DNA of 64,000 bases from Calocera cornea HHB12733. Lineage: Eukaryota; Basidiomycota; Dacrymycetes; Dacrymycetales; Dacrymycetaceae. The stretch lies in the NCBI GenBank assembly GCA_001632435.1, contig KV424056.1:1-64000 (forward strand), written 5' to 3'. The position numbers were made by a program, and so were the translations under genes. Shown here one piece after another: positions 15 through 60,762 of this stretch. The notes below the pieces were generated by a model. That model had not been told where the DNA came from and made no database searches. It saw nothing but the letters and a program-made list of their open reading frames with translations. Every line of letters begins with the position of its first letter. The stretch's first letter is position 1.

Positions 15-37
15 GATCTGGTCTTCATGACCAGATC
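15..37. repeat. Perfect 9-bp hairpin near the left edge
   Basis: GATCTGGTC is followed by a 5-nt loop and then its exact reverse complement GACCAGATC. The first 800 bases otherwise show no gene I can support. The hairpin could be part of a repeat that continues off the window or a chance palindrome. Confidence 0.5.
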
Positions 38-4129: not shown

Positions 4130-4565
4130 CGGCGGGAGCAAAGAGACAACTTCCCCGAGCGGAAGCAACACAACGAGGCTTCCTTTGCTCCCGATTGGGA
4201 ATCTTTGCTTTCCTGGGTAAGCTCTGCTTCCCCCTGACTTCATTTGCCTCCGCCGGAGATCTCACTCCGCCCGTAGATTTGCTTCCACAACAAGGGTCTG
4301 CCTCCGCCCCGCATTTTACCTCCCATTGGCAATTTACACCCGCTTTCAATTTACATCCGCACAAGTATTTGTTTCCGTAATTTGTATTTGCTTCCGCGGC
4401 CGAATTTGTCTACGCTTCTCAGTTCGACTCCGCTCCCCCGATTGCTTCCGCACAAAGTTCGCTTCCGCCTCTTCTTTGGCGTCCATGGAGCTGATTGCCT
4501 CCGTGATCCCATGACTTTGCCACCGTCTGAGAGTTCCTTTGCTCCCGCTTCTCTGTCTCCGTGAA
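4130..4565 (+). repeat. 18-bp TTTGCTTCCGC array, locus 1
   Basis: About twenty degenerate units share the core RTTTGCTTCCGC followed by 5-8 variable bases, so the core recurs about every 17-20 bp. Clear cores include ATTTGCTTCCGC, ATTTACATCCGC and GTTCGCTTCCGC. The left edge begins with two units in the opposite orientation (GGGAGCAAAG and GCGGAAGCAAC) before the array turns forward. The array ends about 170 bp upstream of the chromodomain gene. Translated frames across it look open because 18 is a multiple of three, but no frame is kept throughout. Confidence 0.75.
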
Positions 4566-4734
4566 GTATTTCCATACGGCTCGGAGCCGCGGAAGCAGGT
4601 GGCACGTGTCGTGCATCGGGCGCCTTTGGCGCCCTCCAGGGTCCCTTGTGGTGTCGCGACGGGCGACAAGCTCGCGTTATTCTCGAGCAAGTTCGTTCCC
4701 CACAGCATCGACGACGACGGTGAACGACACACTA

Positions 4735-8778: not shown

Positions 8779-8841
8779 TATGTATAATGGTCTCACTAAT
8801 GATGCTGCACTGTACTGTATCGCATATTGTACATGTAATGA

Positions 8842-9558
8842 CTACGTGTTGCTCCACAACAGCGTACGCAAATCCTTGAACTTCTCGGAGTCGTTGTAGA
8901 GATAGACCATGGAGTTGAACATGCCGGGCTGGATGGTCTCGGCGCGATGCTTGTAGAGCCACATGACAGCGCCCCAGCAGACGGCAGAGAAAAGGGAGAA
9001 CAGGCTCGAATCAGGAGGTATTGGCCGCCCAGGCTGCCTCTTGTCGGCCGGCACGACAGAGCGAGGGATGAGAGCGGCAACGACGCGTGAGCAGACATAC
9101 AGCACGATCTGCGAATACACGTCAACGCAACACCCAGAGATTGAGTGAAGGGAGCTGGCCTGCTCGTTGACAGCTGTCCTGCTCCCGAACACGAGATAGC
9201 CTCCTATCAGACCCGAGATGAACGTGTCCGACGACCGCTCCTTCCCGCCGTTCGCGCGGCGCTGCAGAACGCACAACGCTTTATATAACGAGACGAATTT
9301 CGCGAGATTGAGCGCGTGCTGCTTCGTCAGGCGGTAGATTACTCGGATTCGTGATTTCCAGCTATGATGAACGACGTGAGCCCTCGAAATGCGCTGGCAC
9401 CGATGTGACACTCACTCGCCACGACCAAACAGCAGGGACATGATCAAGGCATGGGGAAAGCGGATCTTGACACCGTACACAAATCCATTTCGGGCGCCCT
9501 TGATGATGCTGAACAGATCATGGTAGGCTGGGTTGGATATGAGGGCGTTCAGATCCAT
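8842..9558 (-). CDS. PXMP4: Peroxisomal membrane protein 4 (PMP24/PXMP4)
   Basis: Exon 1 runs 9558-9416 and starts MDLNALISNPAYHDL. A GT-AG intron lies at 9362-9415, and the rest runs to the stop at 8842. I infer a GC-AG intron at 9109-9159 because removing its 51 nt joins AVNEQ to IVLYVCSRV, as in the family; it is a multiple of three, so read-through would insert 17 residues. The product of 203 residues matches PXMP4 in order: IKGARNGFVYGVKIRFPHALIM, the LVFG segment, the AVCWGAVMWLYKHR region and SMVYLYNDS near the end. PXMP4 is a Tim17-related multi-pass protein of the peroxisome membrane; its exact substrate is not settled. It is divergent from the BTB gene, with an 18-bp array between the two starts. 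Confidence 0.85.
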
Positions 9559-9917
9559 CGTGTGTACAGGACGCGGGGGGAAAAGCGGGGCAGTTGAGAG
9601 GGAGGGAGACAGGAGGGCGGGCGGGGAGCACTGTGGGCAGACGATCAGCACATATGGCAGGGCGGGTGTGGCACCCTGAATAGCCGGAGCTTCCTTTTCA
9701 CGCGCATCTCCACACCGTGAAACATTCCGGATTAACTTCACTTCCGAACATGGGCCCTGAGGCTTGTCTCCGCTGGTATCAATTGCCCGCGACAAGAGCG
9801 ACAGGCTCAGGTTCCACCGGCTACAGTACCACATAGCCACTGCGTAGCCACTAACCCTAAGCAGCTGACTTTATTACTCAAACGAGCTGTTGTCCTTCTG
9901 TACTTCGGTCCAACAGC

Positions 9918-10375
9918 TTGTTTCTGCTTCATGGTTTGCTTCCGCCTAATAGCTTAATTCCGCGTTGTAGTTTATTTCCGCTCAACCATTTGCGCCCGTT
10001 CAGAGGTCTGCCTCCGCTGAAATATTTGCTTCCACATGCTTTGCGTCCGTTTAGGTGGTTGTTTCCACTAAACTCATTTGCTTCCGCTCAAGAGCTTGGG
10101 GGCCTGCTGGTAATTTGCATCCGCTTCCTGGTTTGCTTCGCAAAATTGTACTTCCGCTCCCTTGCTTGCTTCGGCTTAGTAGTTTGCCTCTAGCTTGGAC
10201 TTTACTTCCGTTAGGCAATTTGCATCCCCTGAACCTGTTGCTTCCGTTCTTCATTTGCGTCCGCACATTATTTTCCTCCGTCCCAAATCTGATTCCGCGA
10301 TGAGCCACACCGCCTTTTCGAGATCTGCATCCGCTCTTTTAGTTTGCTTCCGCTATAGGGGTTGCTTCCGTTACA
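9918..10375 (+). repeat. 18-bp TTTGCTTCCGC array, locus 2 (cleanest phasing)
   Basis: About 23 units lie head to tail. Between 9938 and 10080 successive units are almost all exactly 18 or 17 bp: GTTTGCTTCCGCCTAATA, GCTTAATTCCGCGTTGTA, GTTTATTTCCGCTCAACC, ATTTGCGCCCGTTCAGAG. The first 12-13 bases are conserved and the last 5-6 differ in every unit. The array sits in the divergent gap between PXMP4 and the BTB gene and ends near GAGCGCAGAGCG, a motif also seen at the end of another array (about 32311). Confidence 0.8.
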
Positions 10376-10557
10376 GGGCTACTTTTAGTCCCGAGCGCAG
10401 AGCGTTTGTTGTGAGAGGTCCTCCGGCTGCGGGCCTGCCCCCGGCCGTTTCGTTCCGGATCGAGCCGACCCTGACGACGGAGGAACACGTCGGGGACGCG
10501 CTGCGGTGACAACTCTACACGTCGACCTGCAGCGACGGCTGCACAGGAGTCAAAGCG

Positions 10558-10564
10558 TATAAAT
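10558..10564 (+). promoter_or_regulatory. TATA box of the BTB gene
   Basis: TATAAAT lies about 60 bp upstream of the ATG at 10619, a plausible distance for a fungal core promoter. Confidence 0.45.
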
Positions 10565-10618
10565 GATGTGATACCACCTTGGACCGCCTACACACCTAGA
10601 TTGGCTCACCTGCATACT

Positions 10619-11494
10619 ATGGCGACTGCTGAGGAAGTTTCATACTCCTGCCCCAATGCGGATCTAACCATTCGATCATCGTTGGACGGCGCGACCTTTC
10701 CGGCACGGTCTTCATCGCTTGTTTCCGCTAGCATTGTCTTCGACGACATGTTCAGCATCTGCACGCCCACGGATAGTCCCGTCATAGATCTCCTAGAGCC
10801 ATCGGGTACCTTGCTTCAGCTGCTGCAATTCATCCATTATCCGCCCAGCCCCTATTCGGCAGAAGACACGCCCCTCCCGGTGGAAACGATCTCGTCCCTG
10901 CTCACGCTGGCCGACAAGTACCAGTTCAAGACGCATTTCCTCGATACGATCCACACGCACCTCTCAGCCCACATTGCATGGTTTCCGATGCAAGTATACG
11001 TGCTGGCGACACGCTGTGATATCCCCGATATGGCGGATCAGGCAACAGCGTATCTCCATCGCCCGCCGCTCTCAAAGTGGCCGGAGAGCATCATCAAGGC
11101 GCTGCCGTCTGCCCAAGCTTATCACACTGTACTTCGACTCCAAGCACACCGGATGGAGAAGTTCCGCGAGATCCTGCTCGCCGAGGATATCTTCCCACAC
11201 GGCTACGGCAATTGCCTCCTTCATGGACCCGCGACAGCCAAGCTCTGGGAAAGAGCACGAAGGACGATCGCTACTCGGCTGGATGCTGGATCGGACGTAG
11301 GCGAAGAGATGCAGCAATCCCTCCTTACTTCCGTGGCTCAATGCAATGCTTGCGGGATGGCGCTCAATCGTGCCGTCGACATGTTGAAGGTGTGTCTGGT
11401 CTTGCCTTCCGAAATATCCGCTAATCATTGCTTGCAGTACAAGTGTGCTCGTGTAGCCAAAGTGGCAAGTCGGGTTCCACCAGAGACGTCATGA
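10619..11494 (+). CDS. BTB/POZ domain protein
   Basis: The ATG at 10619 starts MATAEEVSYSCPNADLTIRSS. One 48-nt intron (11390-11437, GTGTGT to CAG) is in frame; removing it gives 275 residues and the stop stays at 11494. Residues about 12-110 have the BTB pattern: DLTIRSSLDGATFPARSSSL, FDDMFSI, PVIDLLEPSGTLLQLLQFIHYP, then a helix ending LADKYQF. The remainder is alpha-helical with a Cys pair (CNACG) near the end. Many agaricomycetes carry families of short BTB proteins like this, of unknown specific role; BTB folds mediate dimerisation and cullin-3 binding. No Kelch, MATH or zinc-finger region is visible. Confidence 0.85.
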   Translation: MATAEEVSYSCPNADLTIRSSLDGATFPARSSSLVSASIVFDDMFSICTPTDSPVIDLLEPSGTLLQLLQFIHYPPSPYSAEDTPLPVETISSLLTLADKYQFKTHFLDTIHTHLSAHIAWFPMQVYVLATRCDIPDMADQATAYLHRPPLSKWPESIIKALPSAQAYHTVLRLQAHRMEKFREILLAEDIFPHGYGNCLLHGPATAKLWERARRTIATRLDAGSDVGEEMQQSLLTSVAQCNACGMALNRAVDMLKVCLVLPSEISANHCLQYKCARVAKVASRVPPETS

Positions 11495-11650
11495 CCTTCC
11501 ACTCTTCATCCTCTTCTACCGAACTCGTGCACGGACTAGCTGATTGTCATCTGTATTCCATCTTGCAACGAATCGTCAATGTACATAATAGAGTTGTTGG
11601 GACACCTGAAAACAGAAAACAGAAACGGAACGAGCGCACATCGCTTAACT

Positions 11651-13262: not shown

Positions 13263-14036
13263 TCAGTTTGCGTCCGTCAAGTGAGCTGGTAGCGACGGAA
13301 GCAAAGAGGGTCTCAGCGGAAGCAACTCGCGCTCATTGACCGAGCTGGGCCGGAAACAAAAGAGTCGGTCCTTAGCTCCCGGCTTGGGTCCACTTGTTTC
13401 CGCGGGGGCCTCCTCTACCTCCGCTCAACCCATTGCTTCCGCTGTAGTTATTTGATTCCTCCCTGTATTTGCTTCCGCTTCGCTCATTTGCTCCCGTCAT
13501 AGCATTTGCATCCGTGTTGTTAATTCGTCTCCGCCTTCTTTATTTGCCTCCGTGACTGTCACTTGCTTCCGCTCAAATACGTCCTGCCGCTGTTGAGTTG
13601 TCTCTGTGGCTTGCTTTTGCCTCCGCTCCAGGAATTATCTCCGTGTGATTCATTTGCTTCCTTTGTGTCAACTACATCCTATACTACATTGGCAAGAGCT
13701 GGAACATTTGCCTCCGCTTGCAATATTTACTTCCGCGCCTGCACCTACTCCTACTTAGTTTTTTCACCTCCCGGACATTCTGCCTCCGCTACCAATATTC
13801 AGTTCCGTCTCAGACATCTACTCCCGCAGAGCACTTTTGCCTCCTGCCTTTTTGCCTCGGCACAAAATAGTTGCTTCCGTGACCCACCGCAACTTCTGCT
13901 CTGGAGTTTTACCTCCACTGGTCTAGCTGCCTCTTCAGGGTCCATTCCCTCCCACCTTTCTATATTTATTTACCTCCGTTCTGACTCCGCTCAGAGTATT
14001 TGATTTTGCTTGGGATCCGTCTGACGGACGCAAACT
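13263..14036 (+). repeat. 18-bp TTTGCTTCCGC array, locus 3, with inverted ends
   Basis: About 30 degenerate units lie between the divergent Mtc1-like and GRGGAGN genes. The array opens with CAGTTTGCGTCCGTCA near 13265 and closes near 14022-14036 with the reverse complement TGACGGACGCAAACTG, so its outer units form a terminal inverted repeat. Just inside the left end two more units are reversed (GACGGAAGCAAAG, AGCGGAAGCAACT). The bulk (13396-14000) is forward, for example TATTTGCTTCCGCTTCG and CATTTGCTCCCGTCAT. Confidence 0.75.
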
Positions 14037-14412
14037 GAGGCAATGCTGAATGATGTCTGCTACCGGTGCGCACTGCCGCTTCTCTGAAGTCTTCACCACT
14101 AAACTAGTAACAGACTTTTGTGCTGGCTGCCCAACAGCGTACGATATACACCCTGGGCCCGGATGAGCCAGATATCTGGTCCCCCTTGCTGGAGCGCTTT
14201 GGACCCAAGCCAAGCCAGTTCCACAACGCCAAGCCTTACCGGGGACGATAGGGACCCCTCCCGACGTCACTGCTGCTCAGTCATGGCTGGACCCCGCTTA
14301 GGACTCATATGTGTGGTTCATATACGTCAGCCCCTAAGTCCACTACCTCACGCACTTTACTGCGGGCTTGGCAAAGGCTTCCACCAAGAGCTTTACTCGA
14401 TAAGACCAATGT

Positions 14413-31278: not shown

Positions 31279-31454
31279 TTTCGCAGGTTTTGTTGAAGCT
31301 GACTCTTCTTGCCTATACCTTCTTTGTTGTCTGCCGCCTCATTGTATTCTTACCGGGTGTTGGCCGGTGGGATAGGGCGGAAATCTCATTGCTTCCCGTC
31401 GCGAATTGCCTCATTAGGAAGAGCTTCTGTGCCACCAGTATTACTCTCGAGCTG

Positions 31455-32480
31455 CACACCCCTTGCTTCGCAAGGGGTTTTGGGTGGAGAGCTCGTACCC
31501 TGCTATTCACCAGAGCGCTTGGGCTTCAAACATACCTCGGTTTACTACTCCCTTGTCCATGTCAAGAACGTTGCCTTCCTTTTCTTGCTCCCGCGTGAGG
31601 GACGTTTTGCTTCCCCTTGGTGGTTTGCGTCCGTCGGGGGTTTGGCTTCCGCGTCCCCGTTTGCTTCCGCTAGCACGTTTGCTTCCGTCTCTCAGCTTCC
31701 TTCCGCTTTGCAATCTTCTTCTGGTCCATGGTTTGCTCCCGCTGGTGGGCATGTTTACTGTATTGCGCAGTGAAGGTGAGAAATAGCTCCGAGCATAGCC
31801 CCCTGAACGGAAGCATTTTTGAAAGGTCAAGTTGAAAAATAAGGGCCTTACATTTTCAACTTTCCCTTATGGAAAGCTCGGACCCGACGTTAGTCCGACC
31901 ATAGGTGAGCTATTAAGTGTCTGGAAGATGAAATGAGGTCCTTTGACAGTGTTACATGTTTAATTGGACAAGTAAAAAATGGGCCCCGTTACACGTTACA
32001 CTGTCATCTTCACTGAGCAGTACAGTACTCGTTGTGGTTTGCCTCCGTTGAGAGATTTGCATCCGCTCCAGATTTCGTTCCGACCTCAATTCGATTCCGC
32101 GACTACATTTGATTCCGTATTCATACTTGCCTCCGTTACATTCTTTGCTTCCTCGGCATAATCTACATCCATGCCGTGCTCTGCTTCGGTTTGGACATTT
32201 GCCCCGCTACACGATTTACTTCCATGCCCTAATCTGCTTCCGATTGCCTATTTGCCTCCGCTTCATAGGCGACTTCCACTTTTAGTCTTTGCTTCCGCTC
32301 TCCGGTTCTAGAGCGCAGAGCAATTGTCACAAAAAGTTGGAAATCCTCCGATTGCCGGCCACGTGAACCACATGCACTGTTCTACCTGCGGCACGCCGTC
32401 GATGTCCTCGGCAGCACGGGACAATGGGACACATGAGGGAGGCAAAGCCACCTTATCCTCGCTTCTTGTCCTGATCCTTT
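31455..32480 (+). repeat. Composite array element: conserved left end, 18-bp array, conserved right end, MITE inside
   Basis: The left end (31455-31530; CACCCCTTGCTTCG, then CTCGTACCCTGCT and CACCAGAG) matches the left end of the array element at 39813. The 18-bp units occupy about 31610-31745 and 32040-32305 and are split by a MITE at 31756-32027. The right end has GAGCAATTGTCAC at 32318-32330 and CCACGTGAACCACATGC at 32359-32375. It stays similar to the 40261 copy as far as CCACCTTATCCTC (about 32460). It lies between two plus-strand genes. Confidence 0.65.
31756..32027. mobile_element. MITE family 1, copy A (272 bp, TA-flanked inverted ends)
   Basis: The ends TACTGTATTGCGCAGTGAAG and, reverse-complemented from the other side, TACTGTACTGCTCAGTGAAG match at 18 of 20 positions. 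Both begin with TA, which suggests insertion at a TA dinucleotide as in Tc1/mariner elements. The interior has no ORF. A second copy (38514-38769) is over 90% similar by eye over most of its length but lacks about 28 bp near the left end. This copy interrupts an 18-bp array, so it arrived after the array formed. Confidence 0.7.
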
Positions 32481-32609
32481 CAGTATATAGGTTGGTCGTT
32501 ATGTCATCCTACTAGGTGACTTGCCTTGCTATGAGACGTCCTCTGGGCGGTGTGGCGTATCTATAGGCATGGCTCAGGAGTCTCCTCCGTTTACTCCCAT
32601 GTCCAGGAC

Positions 32610-33115
32610 GACTTGCCCGGCGGAAGCAATGACACCTAGCTTTGCTCCCGTTTGAAGACAGTATTTTGGCAGAAGTTAAGTGCCGCCGCTGAGAACGATT
32701 GGCTTTCCGTTTCATGTGAATTGCTTCCGCTTGACGGAGTTGCCTCCGTTGAGGTCTACATCGGCCAAAGGGGATTACAGTGCTTCCCGTACCGATACTG
32801 CGTCAACCTCAAGGGGACTTCTGTTCTAGCAAGATTGCATAGACTTGACAGAGGTGCTTCCGCCACAACAAATGCCTCCGCCTACTCAGGAATACTTCCG
32901 CTGGTGAAGGGCTGCTTCCGGAGAGAGCCATTCATTCCGCTCACTCCGAATGCTGCCGCTATCTAGGAATCTCTGGGGTAAAGGCAGATGTCTCCGCTCA
33001 TAGAGATTACTTCCGCGTAGTTCAGCTGGCTCGGGGCAATCAATCGACTTGCTTCCGCTTAGGAGAATGCTTCCGCTTCGGATGGGTACTTCCGTTCAAG
33101 AGAATTACTTCCGTC
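32610..33115 (+). repeat. 18-bp TTTGCTTCCGC array, locus 5
   Basis: About 18 degraded units lie upstream of the MFS gene. They start with a reversed unit (GCGGAAGCAATG), then run forward, e.g. AATTGCTTCCGCTTGACG, AGTTGCCTCCGTTGAG and ACTTGCTTCCGCTTAGG at 33049. Spacing is less regular than at locus 2, suggesting an older copy. The last unit (ATTACTTCCGTCC) lies about 355 bp before the start of the transporter gene. Confidence 0.65.
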
Positions 33116-37448: not shown

Positions 37449-37972
37449 GAGGTGTTTCCCAGGATAGCACCCGTCCGGAGGCAGAATGACTGAGGTAGTA
37501 GCACTCCGGGTGCAGTTTCCCCAAATAGCACTTCTTGGGTTCTAAGTACACCCTATTAGTTTTCCACGAAGGCAAAGTATGCTTGAAACCCCATTATGTA
37601 GGTTAGAATGGAAGTAATTCCTTCTCCAAGGGAGCTATTTTTCAAAGTCCAACATGCACCCCATTGCATAACAGAAGCACAGGTGGCGGAACAGCTAGCA
37701 GATTTGTTTTCAATTTGGGAGAGTCAGCAGACCCTCTTTGTATGTACAACAAATGAACAGACAGTAATGCTTCGAAAAGTAACCATTTTGTGCGAGGAGA
37801 GAACATACACACTTACCAGCGAGGCTGGTTTCAAAAAATAAGTCCTTAGAAGGGCGGAGGTATCTTGGGTGCACAATGAAGAGGTAATTCCTCCGATAGC
37901 ACCTGCCCAGAGGCAGAGTGGCTCAAATAGCACTCCGGGCGCAATTTCCCAGAGTAGCACCGTTTTAGCGGG
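37449..37972 (-). mobile_element. MITE family 2, copy 1 (about 525 bp, long inverted ends)
   Basis: The outer parts form an imperfect inverted repeat of about 85 bp: GATAGCACCCGTCCGGAGGC near 37465 is matched from the right side by the reverse complement of GATAGCACCTGCCCAGAGGC near 37900. The whole segment aligns in inverse orientation with 60763-61292, about 80% by eye, including the interior (AAGTCCAACATGCACC, GAGTCAGCAGACCCTCTTTG). There is no ORF, so it looks non-autonomous. Confidence 0.65.
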
Positions 37973-38317
37973 AGAATGTCTCTCTCATGTGCACAAGATT
38001 AAGAGAGCTGTATTATGCCTCCGGTCATCTAAGGAACTTATGTTTCAAATTCATCCTCATTAAGGTGGCATATGACAATTATGTATTTTCTTACATTTCA
38101 GTCTTCAGAGGGAATGAGGAGTCATTGCCGAAAGGTCACATGAACAAATACCAATCAGCTCAGGAGACAAGCTGTTTCTGTTGTGTCCACTGCGTTCATG
38201 CAGTGCAAAGTAAGCTGGGTTTGAAAACAAGCTGCCTTTAGGGAGGAAGCAGCCCTTCCAATGCCATGTTCCTGCGGTGAATGAGGGAGATTTTGTCGCC
38301 ACCTAGATAGCAGTATC

Positions 38318-38513
38318 TTAGCGCCTTAAGAGGCGCTATTCCAGGAAATTGCGCCCGTTTGCGCCCGGAATGCTAGTTCAGTCACTCTGCCTCCGGCCAG
38401 GTGCTATTCGAGGAAATACCTCCACGACAAATGGTTTGCCCGCCCCAAAAAGTGCTATTTGAGGCAACTGCACCCAGAGTGCTACTTCAGTCTTTCCGCC
38501 TCCGGACAGGTGC
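38318..38513. mobile_element. MITE family 2 fragment (two end segments)
   Basis: Two successive segments match the terminal parts of family 2: 38318-38412 resembles the right end of the 60763 copy, and 38420-38513 is nearly identical to the reverse complement of 60784-60878 (GTGCTATTTGAGGCAACTGC, CTCCGGACAGGTGCTAC). The second segment is cut exactly where MITE family 1 copy B begins. Confidence 0.6.
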
Positions 38514-38769
38514 TACTGTATTGCACAGTGAAGGTGAGAAATAGCTCCAAGCATAGCCATAAAGTTGAAAAATAAGGGCGACGGGCCGTTACAGTTTTCA
38601 ACTTTCCCTTATGGAAAGCTCAGACCCGACGTTAGTCCAACCTTAGGTGAGCTATTAAGTGTCTGGAAGATGAAATGAGGTCCTTTGACAGCGTTACATG
38701 TTTCAATTGGACAAGTAAAAAATGGGTCCCGTTACACGTTACACTTTCATCTTCAATGAGCAGTAACTT
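38514..38769. mobile_element. MITE family 1, copy B
   Basis: It starts TACTGTATTGCACAGTGAAG and keeps the interior of copy A (GACCCGACGTTAGTCC, GAGCTATTAAGTGTCTGG, GTTACACGTTACACT). The right end is degraded (GAGCAGTAACTTA instead of GAGCAGTACAGTA). It lacks about 28 bp that contain GGAAGC in copy A. Two 18-bp core motifs (GATGCCTCCG, ATTTGCCTCCGCC) follow immediately at 38784-38815. Confidence 0.65.
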
Positions 38770-39002
38770 ACTCTAGGTATTACATGATGCCTCCGTTCGT
38801 CATTTGCCTCCGCCTACAGGCTACTTCACGCGATTTGGCGTCCACTGTTCAGTCTTCGTTCTGGTGTATCTTCTCTTCATTCGGACGACCAGCATCATCC
38901 AACCCCCTTCACCTTGCGGCTACCTTGAACAGAGGCAGAGAAAGCGAACTCTTGGATTGCTGTGTTCCCGCATCACGGGCTGTGAGGTTTCGCGCTCAAG
39001 GG

Positions 39003-39614
39003 CGCGACTCACTCTCCTCGGCTGGGGACATCTCGGCATCCCATTCGTCGAATGTAGAGGGGAAGAAGAAGCTGGCCACGTTGGTCTCGAGAGTAGGAGC
39101 GTTGGCCCAAGGGATCGAAACTCTCGCGAAAGCGGGTATGAGCGGGGGCGAGTTAACTCGACGAGGCGACTCAGTCTCAAGACTGCAGGACGAGTGCGCG
39201 AAGCTGGGTGAGATGGTGGTTGCAGCGCGCGCAAGCAGCGCGCGTCAAACTACGTTCATGGCCAACATGGACCCTGCACCGACTGCCGACAGAGTTGCAC
39301 TGCTCGGGGCAACGAACGCTCCAATAACCAGAGTGTTTGGATCTCGCCCACGGACCCCTCAGGAGACAGAGCAAACACGGCCCCTGGACGATCGCGGGGT
39401 ACTCCAGTACCAGCAGCTGCAGATTACTCAGCAAGACACTCAGCTTACTCAGCTCAGCACAATACTGCAGCGACAGATGCAGCTTGGTGTCGCGATCGGC
39501 AGTGAAATAGAGGATCAGAATCGAATGCTGGACGACCTGGCGTCGGATGTCGATCGGACTGGGGCGAAGCTGGGGAAAGCCAGGAAGCAGCTGGGCCGGC
39601 TGGAAGGGAAGTGA
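39003..39614 (+). pseudogene. 5'-truncated copy of the VAM7 gene (SNARE part without PX)
   Basis: The sequence repeats codons for about the last 203 residues of the intact VAM7 gene (52955-54022), from RDSLSSAGDIS to the stop, and lacks the PX domain. The frame remains open upstream into unrelated sequence, back to an ATG at 38784, giving a possible 276-residue chimera. Its upstream part (MMPPFVICLRLQ and on) shows no homology that I recognise and has no evident promoter. It is most simply a duplication-generated fragment. Confidence 0.8.
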
Positions 39615-39812
39615 AGAACGTTCTGGTCAGCGTGTGCAGGAGGATGCTGCAGGTAAGCGGAGCACTGACGAGTGCTGTGACTGAGAGGGATCCGCGGGAA
39701 GGGTTGTGTCCAGCACGAAGAGCAAAGATTGTTGCTACATATCCTCCATATGTGCATCAAAAGCTTCTTGCCTCATCCATGCAACCCTACTACAATAGAC
39801 ATTAACGAGTCA

Positions 39813-40455
39813 CACACCCCTTGCTTCGGAGGGTGTCTGGGTTGAGAGGTCGTACCCTGCTGTTGACCAGAGTGTTAGTAGGTCCCAAATATACGTTGAT
39901 TTTCTCCGGTCTCCATCTCAAAGGACTGGTTGCTTCGATAAGAGGATATTTCTGCTCCCGCCCGGAGGTTTGCTTCCGCCCGTAGCTTTACTTCCCCGTC
40001 CTACATTTGCATCCGTTGATTACATTTGGTTCCGCTTCTGTTTCCGCGTACCTGTTTGATTCCGTATATACGTTTGCTTCCGCTTTTGTGTTTGCTTCCG
40101 TGTCATAATCTGCTTCCGATTTACCATCTGATTCCGCTGAGCAATTTACTTCCATGCCCGGATCTGCTTCTGCTGGTTATTTGCCCCCACTAGGGAATTT
40201 ATTTCCATGCCATAATCTGTTTCCAATTGGCTAAGTTGCCCCGTTCTCCGCCTCCTTGTAGAGCAATTGTCACACAACTCGGAAGTTCTCCCATTGTGGG
40301 CCACGTGAACCACATGCTCTGCTCTTCCCGCGCTCGCGCATGCGCACACACCGTCCCTACACTCGGTGGCACGCAGAGAGGGACTCGGGAGGGGAGGCTA
40401 ACCCACTCGCGCCATTTCACCACCTTATCCTCTCGCTTCTTTACTGACCCATCCT
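39813..40455 (+). repeat. Composite array element in the left arm
   Basis: The left end CACACCCCTTGCTTCGGAGG with TCGTACCCTGCTGTTGACCA resembles 31455-31530. About 14 units of the 18-bp repeat follow at 39955-40250 (e.g. GTTTGCTTCCGCCCGTAG, GTTTGCTTCCGTGTCATA). The right module has GAGCAATTGTCAC at 40261-40273 and CCACGTGAACCACATGC at 40301-40317. The mirror copy is at 52114-52756. Confidence 0.7.
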
Positions 40456-40699
40456 TTCAAGAACAGATGGAACACTGATGAGTGCTGTGACTGACAGCAA
40501 CATACAGGTGGGATTGCATCCATTAGGGAGAGCAAAGGTGTCGCTACATATCCTGTCTCTGCGCATGTTTCCATCCTCCTTCCTCTGTGCGGCCTCCCTG
40601 CAGCCTTGCCTAGCATAGACATTGACTAAGATCCTGATGCTGGCTGTGAGTGAGTACAATCTATGGGGTAGGCTGCCTTGAGGAGGAGAACCTGAAGAC

Positions 40700-42640
40700 T
40701 GCTGCACTGAAACTGTTCCCATTGCAACTTCTGCTTATGGCTCTTCCATGCCCCCTCCTCTACAGACCTCCCAACTGTACAGGGTCAAAAACATCCCAAT
40801 AGCTCTGTGAACAAGCAGGCTTTCCTGGAGGAGCAGATGCAAAAATTGTTTGGGCACAATCTATTCTATCACAACTTTTGGTCATATCTCTGCCATGCCT
40901 GCTCCCCTGGATGTCCCTTGCTTGTGGACTTGTCAATGGAATAATATTCATGTGTGAGACAAAGGAGGACCCTTGGGGATGCCTCCCTGAAGGAGCAGGA
41001 ACTGGAAGTTGTTCTTGTCCCATCTGTTCTCTTGCAACTCTTGGCCATATCTCTTCTGTGGCTGCTTCCCTAGACATCCCCTGCTTGTTGACCATCAATG
41101 GGACCCTTATGTATATCCAGAATGCACAGGAGCCTTGGAGTTGCTTCCCTTGACAAGCAGGAGCCAAAAATTGTTCCTGTTCAAATTGTTTGGTTGCAGT
41201 TTTTAGTCATATCTCTCCCATGTAGGCTTCCCTCATAATCCCCCTGTCACATACGGTCAATGGCAAATGAATAATGTATGGGACAAAGCAGGACCTACCA
41301 GGGAACACTCATGGTGGAGCAGCAGTCAAAAGTTGCTTGGATTCAATTTGATTAAGCATAACTTTTGGTCATATATCTGCCACAAATGGAGCCTTGGTAA
41401 GGCCCCTGCTATGGACCATTGATAGGGTGTATTTGATGCATGGGAATGAGCCAGACCATTAGGGCAGCTCAAATGGTGAAGGAGCAGTCAATAGTTGGTT
41501 TCACTCTACTTGATCAAGTGCAACTTTTGGCTGTATCTCCTCCAGGGTGCATCCCCTAGAAATGCCCCTCAGACACCTCATGCATAGGGTGCATCTGATG
41601 TGTGGGAGTGAGCCGGACATTTAGAGGAGTGATTCTGGTGGAGAAGCAGCCAAGAGTTGATTGGCTCAATCTGCTCAACTGCAACATTTGGTTGTATCTC
41701 TTCCAGGGTGCATCCTGTTGTAGTGCCACTATTACACCTCATCAATGGCAGCCCTTATCTTGTGTTGGAACATGCCAGACCCGTAGTAGAGCTCACTGTA
41801 AGGTTCCCTTACTCACATTGTATCTTCTATATCCTTCTCCGGTCCCTTCCCTTTGCCTTAGTGGCTGTGACTCCCCTGCTAGGGATCTTTGCCACATCCC
41901 TCTTGCATTTGCTTCCTTATCCTTTCCCTTGTTGTACCACCACTCCTGTACTGCATCTTGACATCTTGAAATACAGAACAGTCTTAACAGTATTTGGGAG
42001 CGACACTATCTGGATTGGGTCATCAGTGAGGACTGTTTCAGTGGTCCTTTCACTCACCTGTGGAGCAACAGCCAAAAGTAGCTTTCGGTGAAGTGAATCA
42101 TGTGCAACTCTTGGTCATATCTCTCACAGATGCAAAACCCTGGAAAGGCCCCTGTTATGGACCATCAATGGGATGTAGTTGATGCGTGAGATTGAGCTGG
42201 ACCCATGTGGGGAGCTTAAAGGTGGTGGAGCAGTCAAAAGTTGCTTCAACTCGATTGTATCAAGTGCACCTTTTGGTCATATCTCCCTGAGGAAGAAACC
42301 CCTGGTAGCACCCCCAATACACCTCATCAATGGTGCCCTTATCCTGTGTGGAAACAAGCTGGACCCCCAGGAAAGCTCAAGTGGTGGAGGGGCAGTCAAA
42401 AGTTGCTTTGACTCAGTGCAACTTTTGTTCATATCTCTGCCACAAGATCTTCTTCCCCAGTGACTCCACCCACATGTACACTCAAAACTCTCAAGCGATA
42501 ATACTCTGAGCAAGTAGAGCCCAGTGTGCATCTCAATTGGTGGAGGAGCAGCAGTCAAAGGTTGCTTTAGTACAATCTGCGCAAGTGCAAATGTGGGCCA
42601 TATCGCTTCCACAAGCAGCCTTCCCTTGTCTACTACCAAT
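40700..42640 (+). repeat. Degenerate tandem array, about 160-bp unit, left arm
   Basis: The phrase GCAACTTTTGGTCATATCTCT recurs in degraded form near 40876, 41034, 41200, 41357, 41525, 41690, 42105, 42270, 42420 and 42590, i.e. every 150-173 bp apart from one gap filled by a solo LTR. Each unit also carries GGAGCAGTCAAAAGTTG about 20-25 bp before it, so CAAAAGTTG and CAACTTTTG form a hairpin-like dyad in each unit. Other shared text includes TATGGACCATCAATGG. No frame is conserved. Confidence 0.75.
41797..42052 (+). mobile_element. Solo LTR (256 bp) with perfect 5-bp target duplication
   Basis: It begins TGTAAGGTTCCC and ends GTGGTCCTTTCA. The flanking 5-mers are identical: CTCAC at 41792-41796 and CTCAC at 42053-42057. 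The 3' 120 bp (ACAGAACAGTCTTAACAGTA, TCAGTGAGGACTG) are related to the LTRs of the full-length element, but this LTR is shorter. It interrupts the 160-bp tandem array. A mirror copy lies in the right arm. Confidence 0.85.
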
Positions 42641-42907
42641 TCTTCCTTCTACTTTCTACCCATGCCTTCATATGCTGTGCACCCTTCCTTGACTTTAGTG
42701 GTGTTGTATACCCCCTTGGTCACGTGACTCACACGCCTACCTCTTGCCCAATCCTTTCTCATGTTGTCCCTATCTGTTTCCTTTGTTGTACCTTCATCTC
42801 TAGTACTGTACTTCAGACCTCTGGCAATACAGAACTGTCTTAACAGTACTTTGGAGTCCTACCAGAAACAGGATCAATCAGTGAGGACCTCAGCAGGGGT
42901 CCTCTCA
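42627..42907 (+). mobile_element. 5' LTR of the older, truncated Ty3/Gypsy element
   Basis: Its end (CAGAACTGTCTTAACAGTAC, TCAGTGAGGACC, GGTCCTCTCA) is related to the LTRs at 44027 and 49235, and it is followed by the same leader text (CTTTTTTACTGTTATCTCTG) and then by gag. The left boundary is approximate. The inner border of the inverted repeat (42901) falls six bases before its end. Confidence 0.65.
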
Positions 42908-43189: not shown

Positions 43190-44026
43190 TGGGTTTGGAT
43201 AGTGTGTCTCTGTTGGATAGCAGAGAGCCAGAGGATGTGAAGGAATGGGTTGGGTTGATGGAGTTGTGGTTGGAGGCAAAGGAGGTGGATGATGCCAAGC
43301 AGGTGCTGAAGGCACAGGCCGGTCTCAGGGAGCCTGGCCTTGTTGCTTGGTATTGCTTGGAGAAGCCCACCACCAGGCTATGACCTTTGCCAACTGGGAC
43401 AAGGAGCTCATTGCCTATGCCACGCCCACCAACTACCTCAATGATCTGCTGGATGACCTGCGTACTTGCAAGCAGTCCAGCACCCAAGATGTGGACACAT
43501 ACAGCCATGATCTTCATTCTGACAACAACCACCTTGACTCAGCCAACAGGCTGAAAAGTGACCAGCTCTGCACCATCATCCGGTCTGGAGTGAAGGAGGA
43601 TCTTTGTGGTTGCCTGCACTTGGATCCTACCCTTTGTGCTACTGCCACCGTCAAGGACCTTGCTTCTGGCCTTGCCAAACTTGAAGAAGCCCTCAACCTG
43701 GACAACAAGAGGTTCAAGGCTGCATGCAACCTCCCACCACTAGAAGAAGGAACAGAAGCACACCAGACCACTAACACTCCAGTCCAGACACACCCCAACC
43801 CCCATAACACTCATGGTTCCACCCCTACAGCATCCACTGCATCTTTCCCCTCCAAGCTAACTGAGCTGGAGTGCAAGTATCTCACCACTTTTGATGGCTG
43901 CAACAAGTGTTGCAAGATCAGGACTGGTGGGCCTCATGCCAACTGCAATTTTGCAACGGCTGAGGAGGCAAAGGAGGTGGCAAGGAAGGCTGCAGAGTGG
44001 GATGCCCGTGGTCAACCTCAGCCAGC
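43190..44026 (+). pseudogene. Truncated gag of the older Ty3/Gypsy element
   Basis: Two frames carry gag text similar to the gag of the downstream element: MGLDSVSLLDSREPEDVKEW in one frame up to about 43380, then a frameshift, then AMTFANWDKELIAYATPTNY to DARGQPQPA. It keeps the zinc-knuckle-like CNKCCKIRTGGPHANC. It is cut at 44026 by the 5' LTR of the full-length element at the same point where the other gag continues DARGQPQSSKK, so the full-length element is inserted in this gag. Nothing of its pol remains here. Confidence 0.8.
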
Positions 44027-44459
44027 TGTAAGACTTGGCCACTCCATCTTACTCTGTTGCTGAAGACTGACCCATCACCACCTGTCACTTTGCACTCCTT
44101 CTATCTTGCTCCCCTCAATTCCTGGGTATGCTATAGAAGGGGATTTACCATCTATGCCTCTCACTCTTTCATTCCACACTGGCCATATGTTTTTTTATAA
44201 TTTTGCTGTAGCCAGCAAACAGTGTTGTAGAGTGCAGGCACCAGACTCCAGCCGGTCCCTGACTCTTGCGCAGCCTGACTCTGCTGGTCCCTTGACTCTG
44301 CTGCACCGGGCTCATTGGTCCCTGATCCTTTCCCTCATTGTACCACCACTCCTGTACTGCATCTAGATGTCTTGAAATACAGAACAGTCTTAACAGTACT
44401 TCAGGAGCGACATCTACTGGATTGGATCATCAGTGAGGACTGTTGCAATGGTCCTTTCA
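44027..44459 (+). repeat. 5' LTR of the Ty3/Gypsy element
   Basis: It starts TGTAAGACTTGGCC and ends GGTCCTTTCA. The TATA-like site at 44132-44139 reads TATAGAAG where the 3' LTR has TATAAAAG, so the promoter copy that would drive the element is mutated. It follows directly on the interrupted gag of an older element. Confidence 0.9.
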
Positions 44460-44648
44460 CTTTTTTACTGTTATCTCTGCTCTGCAACTTGTCTCTGCAT
44501 GGCAACAACACTCTGAACCAATGTCAACAACATCACTACCACTCTGGACCGGCTCTCTCTCTTCACAGAGACATCCACACCACTTGCCACCTCCACGCCC
44601 CATGCTCAGTCACCCACCAGTGACAGTAGCACTGACCCTCTTGACCTC

Positions 44649-46394
44649 TTGCGCTCCAACACCACGACAATCAACTACACCCGTGTTATTTCACCACCCT
44701 CTCCAACACTATCAAGCAGCAGTTCAGAGATGGGATCTGACAGCATGCCTCTGCTTGAGAGCAGGGAGCTCAATGAGGTGAAAGAGTGGGTTGGGCTTAT
44801 GGAGTTGTGGCTTGAGGCAAGAGAGGTTGAGGCGGGCAAACAGATGCTCAAGGCGCAGGCTGGGCTCAGGGAGCCTGAGCTCATTGCCTGGTACCGCCTG
44901 GAGAAGGCCACCTACCAGGCCATGTCCTTTGCAGACTGGTCAAAGGAGCTCCTTGCCTATGTGACACCTACCGACTATCTCAACAACCTGTTGGATGACC
45001 TCCGCACTTGCAAGCAGTCCAGCAACCAGGACATTGACACCTACATTCGTGAGCTGCGCTCCGACAACAACAGACTCGATGCAGACAACCAAGTGTCTGG
45101 TGACCAGCTCTGCACCATCATCAGAGCTGGTGTCCTGGAAGACCTCTGTGCACGCCTGCACTTGGATGACAAGCTACAGGCTACCAAGTCTCTCAAGGAG
45201 CTTGCCTTGGGTCTGTCCAAACTCAACAAGGTCCTGAATCTGGACAACAACCACATCAAGGCTGCAACCTCTCACCACTATAAGAGAGAGCAGAAGCACA
45301 CCCAGACCAGCTCTGCCTCCATCCCAATGTGTCCTGGTGCTACCACCCAGACCACCATGTCCTCATCTACCAACACTACCTTTGCAGCCAAACTTACCAA
45401 CTTGGAACGCAAGTACCTCACTACCTTTGATGGCTGTAACAAGTGTCGCAAGATCAAGACAGGCGGACCGCATGCCAGCTGCAACTTTGCCACAGCTGAG
45501 GAAGCCAAGGAGGTTGCACACAAGGCTGCTGAATGGGATGCCCGTGGTCAGCCCCAGTCATCCAAGAAGACCAGTGATGTCAAGGTCAAGGTTGAGGCAC
45601 GTGCCCCCTCCTCCCAGAATGCCAAAGCCACCAAGGCCACATCTAAGAAACCCAAGAAGCTAATCTTGCCTCCCAGCTCCTCCAATGAGGCTGATACTGA
45701 CATCAGCTCTGAAGAGTATGCCTCAGCTGAGGATGATGTGTATGTCAGCACCAATGTGGCTACTACCACAGTGCCCTTCCGTGTTTCCCACCGCTCTGAA
45801 GACGCGCTCATTGACTCCGGTTGTTCTGCTCTCCTCATCTCAGATCTTCTGGCAACTGAACTCAACCTGCCACATTGTCAACTCCCCCAGTCCCAGGTGG
45901 TGGAGCAGGCATTGAGAGATGAGAAGGGGAGGCAACACAAGTTGAGAGAATATGTTGAGCTGGCGCTGTATCACCCCAAATCACACTTCAAGACTTGCAA
46001 ACTACCATTCAAAGTTGCTCCCTTAGATGGACAATATCTCATTCTTGGCACCCCATTCCTTAAAGAATATGACATTGTGCTTGAGTTCTCTCCACCCGCT
46101 GTCATCCTCAAGAGCTTGGGCTACAGCTACAACATGCTCTCTGGCAGGACACAGACTCAGTCCACTCTCAACTCTGTTGCAGCACTGCTTGCAGCAATCT
46201 GTGTGGCATTGCATTGCAGCAAAGACTTGGAGCCTACTGAAGACCTGCAGCAAGCAAACCAGAGACTCATGACAGAGTACTCCAACCACTTCCCACCGGA
46301 CATCCCTGACTTGGGACCAGTGCCACCAGCACTCCCAAGAGAAGACTTGGATACTGCCCACATCCAGCTGCAAGACCCAAGGAAGAAGATATGA
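44649..46394 (+). pseudogene. Retrotransposon gag-protease segment
   Basis: An open frame of 581 codons. Gag helices include VKEWVGLMELWLEAREV, AWYRLEKATYQAMSFADWSK and YLNNLLDDLRTCKQSSNQD. A cysteine motif CNKCRKIKTGGPHASC has spacing C-X2-C-X8-H-X2-C, unlike the usual C-X2-C-X4-H-X4-C knuckle. The aspartic protease signature is ALIDSGCSALLISD, with ILGTPFLKEYD as the second conserved segment. The frame stops at a TGA (46392-46394) in the conserved KKI-(Arg)-PKVYSCP region leading into reverse transcriptase; an ancestral CGA changed to TGA is the simplest reading. Translation probably began at 44649 or at the Met at 44730. Confidence 0.85.
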
Positions 46395-49146: not shown

Positions 49147-49234
49147 CTGGCACCAAGAACATCCACCTCTCCCACTCACACGTCAGCATGCTCAATGAGC
49201 CAACACTCCGGAGCATGCTCTCAGTGGGGGACAG

Positions 49235-49667
49235 TGTAAGACTCGGCCACTCCATCTTACTCTGTTGCTGAAGACTGACCCATCACCACCTGTCACTTTG
49301 CACTCCTTCTATCTTGCTCCCCTCAATTCCTGGGTATGCTATAAAAGGGGATTTACCATCTATGCCTCTCACTCTTTCATTCCACACTGGCCATATTTTT
49401 TTTTCTAATTTTGCTGTAGCCAGCAGACAGTGTTGTAGAGTGCAGGCACCAGACTCCAGCCGGTCCCTGACTCTTGCGCAGCCTGGGTCTGCTGGTCCCT
49501 TGACTCTGCTGCACCGGGCTCATTGGTCCCTGATCCTCTCCCTTGTTGTACCACCACTCCTGTACTGCATCTAGACGTCTTGAAATACAGAACAGTCTTA
49601 ACAGTACTTCAGGAGTGACATCTACTGGATTGGATCATCAGTGAGGACTGTTGCAGTGGTCCTTTCA
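49235..49667 (+). repeat. 3' LTR of the Ty3/Gypsy element
   Basis: It starts TGTAAGACTCGGCC and ends CAGTGGTCCTTTCA. A TATA box (TATAAAAG, 49340-49347) is intact here. About 13 differences from the 5' LTR were counted by eye over 433 bp. It ends directly at the right arm of the inverted repeat. Confidence 0.9.
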
Positions 49668-50516: not shown

Positions 50517-50772
50517 TGAAAGGACCACTGAAACAGTCCTCACTGATGACCCAATCCAGATAGTGTCGCTCCCAAATACTGTTAAGACTGTTCTGTATTT
50601 CAAGATGTCAAGATGCAGTACAGGAGTGGTGGTACAACAAGGGAAAGGATAAGGAAGCAAATGCAAGAGGGATGTGGCAAAGATCCCTAGCAGGGGAGTC
50701 ACAGCCACTAAGGCAAAGGGAAGGGACCGGAGAAGGATATAGAAGATACAATGTGAGTAAGGGAACCTTACA
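50517..50772 (-). mobile_element. Solo LTR, mirror copy in the right arm
   Basis: This is the reverse complement of 41797-42052, including the flanking CTCAC target duplications (GTGAG on this strand). The solo LTR therefore existed before the inverted duplication. Confidence 0.85.
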
Positions 50773-52113: not shown

Positions 52114-52756
52114 AGGATGGGTCAGTAAAGAAGCGAGAGGATAAGGTGGTGAAATGGCGCGAGTGGGTTAGCCTCCCCTCCCGAGTCCCTCTCTGCGTGC
52201 CACCGAGTGTAGGGACGGTGTGTGCGCATGCGCGAGCGCGGGAAGAGCAGAGCATGTGGTTCACGTGGCCCACAATGGGAGAACTTCCGAGTTGTGTGAC
52301 AATTGCTCTACAAGGAGGCGGAGAACGGGGCAACTTAGCCAATTGGAAACAGATTATGGCATGGAAATAAATTCCCTAGTGGGGGCAAATAACCAGCAGA
52401 AGCAGATCCGGGCATGGAAGTAAATTGCTCAGCGGAATCAGATGGTAAATCGGAAGCAGATTATGACACGGAAGCAAACACAAAAGCGGAAGCAAACGTA
52501 TATACGGAATCAAACAGGTACGCGGAAACAGAAGCGGAACCAAATGTAATCAACGGATGCAAATGTAGGACGGGGAAGTAAAGCTACGGGCGGAAGCAAA
52601 CCTCCGGGCGGGAGCAGAAATATCCTCTTATCGAAGCAACCAGTCCTTTGAGATGGAGACCGGAGAAAATCAACGTATATTTGGGACCTACTAACACTCT
52701 GGTCAACAGCAGGGTACGACCTCTCAACCCAGACACCCTCCGAAGCAAGGGGTGTG
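52114..52756 (-). repeat. Composite array element in the right arm
   Basis: This is the mirror of 39813-40455: 18-bp units read as AGCGGAAGCAAAC-type words on the plus strand between 52319 and 52614, with the GAGCAATTGTCAC module at 52296-52308 in reverse. It lies about 200 bp downstream of the VAM7 stop codon. Confidence 0.7.
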
Positions 52757-54154: not shown

Positions 54155-54337
54155 CTCCGCTTACTCCCGTTTGCTCCCGTTTGCTCCCGCCACTTGCATC
54201 CTCACGTGCAACACACCAACGGAGAATCACAGCTACTTACTGTAGGTTACAGTAGTGCATGTATGGCCCCAAAAGAGCGACTGTCACAAAACCAGAGTTG
54301 AGTCCCGGTTACAGTCGCCGCCACGTGCACAACATGC
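54155..54337 (+). repeat. Remnant array and conserved right module upstream of VAM7
   Basis: Three cores occur in a row (ACTCCCGTTTGCTCCCGTTTGCTCCCGCC region, 54160-54190). About 85 bp on come GAGCGACTGTCAC (54275-54287) and CCACGTGCACAACATGC (54321-54337), the same pair of motifs as at 32318 and 40261. It lies between the start of VAM7 and the end of MCM3. Confidence 0.6.
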
Positions 54338-54466
54338 GCTACTCTGGTTTACTGCAATCGTAAGCAATATCAAAGAGGCACATCGACGAGTACATGTTTG
54401 GTGAGACACAAGGGATGGACAAGGTAAGAAAATAGAGAAGACACAGATCTACGCTGCATGTACTTT

Positions 54467-57389: not shown

Positions 57390-57867
57390 ATTCATTGTCT
57401 TTGCTTCCGCGCCCCACCGAGAAATTGGCCGTATCTTTTCTTTTCTTTGAAGGTTGTAGGGCTTCTTGCTCCAGCTTTGGGTAGATTCTACTTCCGTTTT
57501 GGTGTCTCTGCTTCCTTTGGAGCAAGACGTAGTGAGGCGGGATGGGAGCGAAGAGACTTGCAACCAAGCGGAATCAAATATTCCATGGGGAAGCAAAAGG
57601 CTTTACCGGAAGCAAATTAACCCGAAGCGGAAGCAGAAATCACTTCCGTAGAAGCAACACCTGTTCAATGAAGCGGAAGCAAGACATTCAAGCACGGAAT
57701 TAAAGACACATCTCAGCAGGAGCAAATACTGAAATCTAATTACTTCCGTGTGGTATGCGTTTCGTTATGCTTCCCCAGAGCAGGGCCGTGAGTTTCCCTG
57801 ACAAGGGCATGGGAGTATACGGAGATACACTGGTAACCTATGCAGCAGATTGCGAAGCGATTGTCAC
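57390..57867. repeat. 18-bp array locus with mixed orientation and end module
   Basis: One forward unit (CTTTGCTTCCGCG near 57402) is followed by reversed units: AAGCGGAATCAAAT, ACCGGAAGCAAATT, AAGCGGAAGCAGAA, AAGCGGAAGCAAGA (57560-57700), and forward ones again (ATTACTTCCGTG near 57740). GAAGCGATTGTCACGAAACTC (57854 onwards) is the conserved end module. It lies between the MCM3 start and the SUR7-like stop. Confidence 0.6.
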
Positions 57868-58046
57868 GAAACTCCCGAGTCCTCTGCTACTCTTCCCCTG
57901 AAAATGATGCGGGAACCAGTCCGTGGATGACATAGTTTCAGTAAGCCGCTGCGTCCACCAATCGCCCGAACACAGTACAAGACTGTCCTTGCCTACGATG
58001 CATTTTCGCACCATCAAACCCATCAACGGTCTCAACTCTATGTACC

Positions 58047-59500: not shown

Positions 59501-60762
59501 GTTTGGGCGACAATATCATCCACACCCGCTCAACCCCGCCCTCGCGCTAGAAGGTGATGGTGAGCTGACAGCAAAGCGTCGCTTCGTCCCTGACTATATA
59601 CGCTGCACGTCGTGGGGATGTTGGAGGACCTCGAGGCGGGAGTCGGCGGCACGAGGCAGCCCCAGGGTCTCGTAGTCCCTGACCAAATGGAGATAGCCGA
59701 TATGCCCGCCACGGATTGTAGGGGGTCGTTTTGGACAGTAAAAGTGCAAAATCGGTATATACCTCCATTAGGGTTAGCGGCAGTGCATAGATTTGACTCT
59801 TGGCCCGCCGCAGGCGACGAACTGCAGAGTGGCCATCCGACCCTGGGAGCGAAGCCGAGCATTTATTGTTCGAGGGACGCGGCGCGGTTTGGAGCCTCTC
59901 AATAATAATAGGTTATATAGAGCTGAGGGTGCCAAGTGCAAATGTGGATTGAGCTGCCTTTGGGACAGAACTCTCGTCACTGGTCTGGCCGTAGCGGGCT
60001 CTACCGTGGCGTGAGCCCCGGTCCTTCCGTCCTTATCAGCCAGGACAAGCAATCCAACAACCTTTGGGTCCAAAGGGCGCAGTGGATGGCCTACTGAGCG
60101 GACAACATGCACACCGAGGCTCTAATTGCCAGCAGAGGACAACGTGGACCCCGCGCGTAGAAGTTGAGGTTCCGAGTTTCGTGACAAACGCTCACTGCGT
60201 GCTGGAGGGGTTAATTCCTCCGGTGACCTGTCTACGGAGGCAGCACAAGTACTCCTAATCATCGGAAGTAGGTTACGGAAGCGGAAGCAATACAGCCGAA
60301 GTACTGGATGACTTGCCGTGGGCATCTGCGAGTGTAGTCTGCGTGCACGCAGATTTCAGAATCACGTCATGCCGGCCCTCCGTTCTCAACATTGGAACTC
60401 CGAGGCACTCGCAAATTTGAAATCTAGAAGAGGGGGGGGGGACCCCCTCTCCTAGAACGGCATCTAAACACAGATTCAAGTTTGCATATATAGGATGTGT
60501 TATTTTGATCTGGAGCCAAATTGAGCAGACAGGGAAGCAGGGACTGCCCTTCCTGATTGGTAGATGGGTCTTACACAGATCTACGACTTATCTATGTTCT
60601 GCGCCCTACAGGAAGAGGCCCACTTTATAGATTTATGATTTCTTCCGCCCGAAAACGCAGATCTAGGATTTAGGGCCACGGCAAGTCATCCACTGTACTA
60701 ACCAGCAAACGTGCCCTGCGTCACCTGTCGTCACCAGGCCCTGTCAGTGTGCACTTTTCCCT
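59501..60762. other. Intergenic stretch with a remnant array module
   Basis: I find no gene. At 60168-60193 the array end module appears in reverse (TTTCGTGACAAACGCTC), and 60265-60300 holds two reversed units (TACGGAAGCGGAAGCAATAC). A run of ten G's at about 60431-60440 is the longest homopolymer noticed. A stretch near 60510-60660 has TAGATC/AGATCT words (ACAGATCTACGA, GCAGATCTAGGA). Confidence 0.4.

Follow-up and report, generated by a model that had tools for sequence, protein, structure and literature searches.

Arrays of an 18-bp unit in the jelly fungus Calocera cornea are probably the interior of Foldback-like elements related to KDZ DNA transposons

The transposons En/Spm (TNPA sites) and Ac/Ds (AAACGG sites), which belong to different superfamilies, carry numerous short motifs near their ends to which proteins of the element bind, and these sites are not known to have a fixed 18-bp period. 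By its design Galileo appears to be the nearest published analogue of the arrays described here. According to passages of PMC3688188, the THAP domain of Galileo leaves an 18-bp footprint that covers +63 to +80 in the terminal repeat, and tandem repeats of the long terminal repeat contain additional THAP sites for the transposase. The elements of Calocera cornea resemble Galileo and other Foldback-like elements of the P superfamily in having terminal repeats, internal tandem repeats and several, here putative, binding sites, but Galileo has a P-superfamily transposase and four long repeats, two of them with a site (passages of PMC3688188), whereas the Calocera arrays consist of 10–40 short units with randomised spacers. 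They also resemble Tetris of Drosophila virilis, described in part of PMC4079207 as a foldback element whose building blocks produced tandem repeats, with the difference that these gave rise to satellite DNA. Among KDZ-type elements, 8-bp duplications are described for Zisupton (passages of PMC12730594), and 241-bp terminal repeats with 8-bp duplications for KDZ1 of Cryptococcus (passages of PMC12810828). Full-length relatives in Calocera are like the fungal KDZ elements of these two papers, with terminal inverted repeats, 8-bp duplications and a CxC-type cysteine cluster, whereas the array elements differ in having no convincing target-site duplication and short interiors made of the array. 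The main texts of PMC12730594 and PMC12810828 do not contain the word "subterminal", and no arrays are described in the passages available from them. A full-text literature search for the letters of the motif gave no fungal repeat among the matches listed, judged by title, and searches on fungal tandem repeats, KDZ, foldback elements and Dacrymycetes gave no such arrays among the matches listed, judged by titles and opening lines. The first-pass annotation of this DNA knew of no named fungal repeat of this form, and within the literature searched this holds for the array itself, but not for the elements sharing its ends, which belong to the KDZ superfamily.

The window, that is the whole stretch of DNA analysed, comprises 64,000 nucleotides (C143:1-64000) of the 32.1 Mb assembly, in 302 contigs, of the jelly fungus Calocera cornea HHB12733, a basidiomycete of the Dacrymycetes. 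The arrays, which are found throughout the genome, are built of an 18-bp unit with a conserved core, (R)TTTGCTTCCGCT, and a nearly random spacer. With up to three mismatches TTTGCTTCCGCT has 146 matches on the + strand of the window and 68 on the - strand, and the + strand spacings peak at 18 (33 pairs), 36 (26), 54 (22) and 72 bp (16), while five first-order Markov simulations of the window give 22–34 + strand matches each and 2 pairs in total at spacings of 80 bp or less. The 18-bp arrays claimed in the first-pass annotation are thus confirmed by spacing peaks at multiples of 18 and by the nine arrays of at least five units called in the window by a PWM scan (Table 1), and the comparison with randomised sequence that it proposed places the 18-bp peak in the window and in none of the five simulations. 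TRF reports the arrays of the window as short fragments only. In the whole genome there are 188 copies of the exact core 12-mer and 4 of its reversed control, and for a three-unit pattern the corresponding counts are 47 and 0. In 228 kb, made up of the window and of loci picked for containing the core, 84 arrays with 1690 units were called, and after adding motif-selected loci and dropping mirrored copies the set comprises 91 arrays with 1810 units, the majority of the loci having been selected by the exact core 12-mer. The median array has 22 units in 456 bp and the largest 40 units in 954 bp. An estimate of about 376 arrays in the genome, with an error of possibly twofold or more, is derived from the 20 motif-selected loci, which contain 12 arrays and 6 exact 12-mers.

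The array at 9917-10372 has a Tim17-like ORF (-) and a BTB-like ORF (+) as neighbours, both slightly under the Pfam cut-offs, which agrees for this locus with the statement that all arrays lie between genes; for the other arrays it was compared with a partial ORF list only. A coding repeat could be ruled out because the unit spacings mix 17, 18 and 19, and a search against Rfam at the gathering threshold gave no match to a known RNA family in the window. No allelic copy of 8800-11500 was found for a rate comparison, the stretch matching nothing but itself. A home-made coding-potential scan gave 11 segments, compared with 5 when the control was reversed sequence, and is too weak for gene mapping.

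Table 1. Arrays and terminal-repeat matches located in the window.
Feature	Position	Strand	Basis
18-bp array under study, 22 units, single orientation	9917..10372	+	PWM scan
Terminal-repeat match, outward, right flank of 9917 array, 6-bp gap	10395..10435	+	local alignment score 45
Array, 22 units, mainly +, inverted units at ends	4131..4599	+	PWM scan
Array, 28 units, inverted block close to left end	13267..14067	+	PWM scan
Left part of array interrupted by MITE-like insert, 9 units, the last (on -) within the insert	31584..31817	+	PWM scan
Right part of array begun at 31584, 11 units	32038..32299	+	PWM scan
Outward flank of 31584-32299 array, inner part of terminal repeat and extended flank	31412..31569	-	nhmmer E 1.2e-07 (31502-31569), 2e-19 (31412-31514)
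Outward terminal-repeat match right of 31584-32299 array	32310..32385	+	nhmmer E 3.8e-17
Array, 11 units	32853..33115	+	PWM scan
Weak outward flank match, ~200 bp left of 32853 array	32567..32654	-	nhmmer E 2.7e-06
Array, 16 units	39951..40227	+	PWM scan
Outward flank left of 39951 array	39780..39939	-	nhmmer E 2.9e-05 (39866-39939), 2.7e-13 (39780-39873)
Outward terminal-repeat match right of 39951 array	40257..40327	+	nhmmer E 2.1e-17
Mirror copy of 39951 array within 3.9-kb inverted duplication	52342..52618	-	PWM scan
Outward terminal-repeat match of 52342 mirror array	52242..52312	-	terminal-repeat match
Terminal-repeat match directed away from remnant 54160-54190	54274..54347	+	nhmmer E 7.7e-06
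Array, 11 units, mainly -, + units at either end	57487..57777	-	PWM scan
Outward terminal repeat right of 57487 array	57794..57886	+	nhmmer E 1.8e-14
Terminal-repeat match directed away from remnant near 60270	60132..60204	-	nhmmer E 5.2e-08

Core and spacer were compared in 375 "middle" units, each with a good unit on either side and taken without selection on its own core. In these units five of the six spacer columns contain 0.00–0.04 bits and the last 0.28 bits (A/G), in agreement with the R noted earlier. In the 339 in-phase units core positions 3, 7, 8, 9 and 10 are kept at 86–97% and the others at 58–81%, with the three weakest at 58–65%. The unit had been described as a constant core with a variable remainder, which is correct as to the random spacer but not as to a uniform core. 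The mean identity of the core to its consensus is 0.795 in phase and 0.756 over all 375 units, and core pairs are about 69–70% identical at each lag from 1 to 8 while the spacers are nearly saturated. This last difference, and the unequal keeping of the core positions (97% against 58%), would suit arrays maintained by the host, in which a host protein, acting for example at chromatin boundaries, in silencing or in chromosome pairing, binds a core under present purifying selection. We consider such maintenance unlikely, as the identity of the core is comparable with the values found for the terminal repeats presented below (0.65–0.92), so that both may have decayed alike.

Adjacent spacers are slightly more alike than spacers of different loci (identity 0.316 against 0.261, n=315, and 0.298 against 0.256, n=1127), indicating that the units were formerly copied whole, and at C8:199699-199920 whole-unit amplification is visible in a series in which the first three units have one spacer and the next four another. 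Replication slippage had been dismissed because it copies whole units, an argument not supported in view of this plain amplification and of the weak residual identity of adjacent spacers. The same two observations might be taken to mean that the arrays are ordinary decayed minisatellites, produced by neutral slippage long ago, but we find this hardly credible, since neutral decay would not randomise six columns and yet keep their neighbours, and since dozens of loci have a common core with little or no common spacer and are bordered by conserved outward flanks. Apart from C8:199699-199920 the units are not homogeneous over their whole length as in a minisatellite, the spacer identity within runs being 0.27–0.30. 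Spacer runs are also little shared between arrays, with 56 matches of at least 15/24 against 31–34 when the spacer columns were permuted; spacer homology between arrays was rejected, the small excess being attributed to composition or to very weak ancestry.

A recurrent flank, GAGCGCAGAGCGATTGTCACGAAACTCGGAAGTCCTCC, is located at the edges of the arrays. Allowing up to three mismatches, 21 bases of it are found at 39 places in the genome and the control at none, and a first motif scan gave 35 matches against 5 in shuffled sequence at an equal threshold. A terminal-repeat profile, built from nine array-flanking seeds and used at E 0.01 with mirrored copies dropped, has 56 matches in the loci examined, of which 44 have an array of at least five units within 400 bp and 12 have none. 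In 41 of the 44, the nine seeds included, the array lies solely on the inner side of the outward-pointing repeat; it is on the outer side in two (C240:18693 and C13:297103) and on both sides in one (C5:318298). The repeats are 65–92% identical to the model consensus. Counted from the arrays, 35 of the 91 have a terminal repeat where it is expected and no more than 400 bp away, 7 of them at both ends and 28 at one, and the remaining 56 have no repeat detectable by the profile at E 0.01, in flanks that often extend only a few hundred bases. The profile misses decayed copies, as the array at 9917 is counted among the 56 and yet has a right flank, at 10395-10435, that aligns with a score of 45, where 5000 shuffles reach 30 at most. 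Array remnants suspected earlier at 54160 and 60270 are each adjoined by a terminal-repeat match.

The sequence of about 95 bp that flanks the arrays also forms the ends of four full-length elements of 8–11 kb, located on contigs C75, C5, C18 and C90. The element at C75:17938-26061 is 8124 bp long, has the motif at both ends, which the profile finds with E 6.4e-21 and 4e-13, and is immediately bordered by the 8-bp duplication AACTAACG. At C5:194450-204239 the profile finds both ends, and at C18:97533-107545 and C90:25196-35772 one each (E 4.1e-18 to 6.9e-14); the missing C18 and C90 ends were predicted from the distance between CxC5 and the tip, and were found in the 1.5 and 1.3 kb examined there. 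Both ends of the terminal inverted repeats are thereby identified in all four coding elements. The C5 and C18 elements have the 8-bp duplications GCACACGA and CGCGGACA, respectively, on either side, and the C90 element has GGAGATGT, if its right tip is set 2 bases beyond the aligner's placement; with this shift a perfect target-site duplication (8/8) borders four of four elements. The right-hand gene of the C75 element codes for a KDZ-transposase cysteine cluster of the CxC5 type (E 3.4e-24), and the next frame piece has a KDZ match at E 0.029, below the cut-off. A CxC5 domain is also located inside the C5, C18 and C90 elements. The genome contains at least 51 KDZ-domain matches and 31 CxC5 matches, which are stretches and not elements, and because 0 of the 51 KDZ-domain matches listed are inside the four elements, their filing under KDZ rests on CxC5, the terminal repeats and the duplications.

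The array core is present in all eight ends of the four coding elements, in one orientation and starting 68–89 bp from the tip, with PWM scores of 14.6 and 16.9 in C75, 12.0 and 14.6 in C18, 16.9 and 12.4 in C90, and 12.0 and 8.1 in C5. A score of 14.6 is reached at about 5 per million sites in simulated sequence and one of 8.1 is expected in about 5% of ends, the C5 end with 8.1 being not significant alone. This sub-terminal motif is probably a binding site for the transposase. The earlier suggestion that the core is read by a protein thereby gains indirect support, since the core is found in all eight ends and its positions are unequally conserved. A second protein, encoded at the other end of the C75 element (L104:187-963), has no Pfam match and contains a compact cysteine cluster; it is a candidate for the protein that reads the core.

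In many array elements the conservation continues outward, to about model position 240, in a flank that is not seen in the coding elements, and as this flank lies beyond the tips of the latter, the ends assigned to the array elements and their insertion are putative. In this extended flank (model positions 164-240, for example 31412-31514) there is a short hairpin, CCCCTTGC-GAA-GCAAGGGG, which matches exactly in both the window copy and the consensus of the model, and near-exactly in some other copies. At tips defined by the coding elements none of five two-sided array loci has an 8-bp target-site duplication matching 8/8, the best being 6/8, and four further pairings in the window, of ends of different loci, reach at best 5/8. 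At the extended ends of 7 pairs, one of them a mirror copy, the matches are no better than in random pairing, the one 8/8 word, at the 39951 locus and its mirror, being set against 24 such cases in 300 random pairings.

With no convincing target-site duplication placing an array inside an inserted element, it might be supposed that KDZ-type elements were inserted into or beside older arrays, and that the flank and not the array is KDZ terminal repeat. Of the 24 terminal-repeat matches at loci fetched by the motif and not by arrays, 12 have an array on the inner side, in keeping with a place inside the element, and 1 on the outer side; the other 11, six of them ends of the four coding elements, have none and would favour such insertions. 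We judge such insertions very unlikely, because in nearly all of the 44 cases the array is confined to the inner side, because the terminal repeat itself contains the core, and because the orientation of the array blocks follows the repeat. Beside terminal repeats with the inner part present, the block is oriented as the repeat's own motif in 27 of 30, nine of which are model seeds; a seed contains one array unit, and the orientation next to seeds is therefore partly built in. Among matches starting at model position 15–30 the block agrees with the motif in 9 of 11. Where the inner part of the repeat is lost the block is reversed in 8 of 12, as would result from the spreading of one half-array to the opposite end. 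Over the 91 arrays the layout is one-way in 65, "><" in 21, "<>" in 2 and three-block in 2, with 1 having none, and the difference between 21 and 2 has p=6.6e-5. Inward growth from both ends should give blocks that face each other, and the excess of "><" over "<>" agrees with this, but most arrays run one way.

In our view the arrays probably form the inner part of Foldback-like elements that are non-coding and have KDZ DNA transposons as relatives. The homologous terminal repeats by which non-autonomous KDZ elements are recognised are present, as the array-flank profile hits the coding elements with E 6.4e-21 to 4e-13 and 35 of 91 arrays have the repeat; since the array elements have no convincing target-site duplication, a defining feature of KDZ, they are graded as KDZ-related rather than as proven KDZ insertions. 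The core would be a putative binding site of the transposase or of a helper protein of the element, which in non-autonomous derivatives may have been multiplied inward from one or both ends by tandem duplication of whole units. It would have been kept while the elements were mobile and needed recognition, when amplified sites might be favoured or tolerated, and the spacer, as a mere distance read by nothing, would have drifted to randomness. Arrays with no detectable repeat should then be older or end-deleted copies, and most copies may now be immobile and decaying. Against this explanation stands the little sharing of spacers in spite of the identity of 65–92% between terminal repeats and consensus, which simple copying of whole elements would not yield, together with the 56 of 91 arrays with no detected repeat and a core quality that is independent of how far the terminal repeats have decayed (Spearman -0.06, p 0.70, in 41 repeat-array pairs with some arrays entered twice). 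The variance of the core score between arrays is 1.32, slightly above the maximum of 1.29 in 1000 permutations. The flat core quality indicates either that the copies are similar in age or that the core is still held, and this independence of terminal-repeat identity, like the number of arrays with no detectable repeat, speaks for maintenance by the host; the outward KDZ-type repeats with arrays on their inner side and matching block orientation indicate instead a mobile origin. The two could be combined if former transposon ends were adopted by the host and a cellular, perhaps KDZ-derived, protein now reads the core, with present selection in hundreds of arrays, a doubtful reading on the present evidence.

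Several other repeats are found near the arrays. The array at 31584-32299 is split by a MITE-like insert at 31756-32030 with TACTGTA/TACAGTA ends, relatives of which are located at 38514-38773 and C4:73242-73523. A second dispersed family, of semi-repeated AGTAGCACTCCGGG blocks with about 75–95% identity among copies, adjoins arrays at several loci; it is found in the window at 37449-38520 and, inverted, at 60775-61292, and in the flanks of C3:160028, C3:190014 and C5:318342. Four array loci have near-exact inverted duplicates 10–13 kb apart, namely window 39003-42901 and 49668-53566 (3899 bp, 100%), C37:168389-171449 and 179935-182995 (3061 bp, 99.87%), C65:132300-133653 and 145767-147120 (1354 bp, 99.93%), and the pair at C8:263059 and C8:273461, with flanks of 260 and 319 bp at 100%. 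These mirrored loci may be real inverted duplications or assembly errors, and as rate clocks they were rejected, being too alike at 99.87–100% identity. The inverted arms in the window enclose a Ty3-like element, and the left arm has only the downstream part of a PX-domain ORF. Direct repeats of 300 bp, 98% identical, are located at 44027 and 49235 in this Ty3/gypsy-like element (43300-49700), which also has weak frames of gag-like, RNase H and integrase-chromodomain type.

If the preferred reading of the arrays as the interior of KDZ-related elements is correct, they would constitute a fungal, KDZ-related counterpart of the Foldback/Galileo design, with dozens of site-like units at an 18-bp step and drifting spacers. 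Such elements may be overlooked by a tandem-repeat caller, as the TRF fragments in the window illustrate. From the 375 aligned, unselected units the sequence that a putative reader protein would prefer can already be predicted. As core and spacer alternate in the same DNA, the arrays offer a ready test of selection on a motif after the death of the element, and should adoption by the host be true, the core would have been held by selection long after the ends of the elements and the spacers had decayed.
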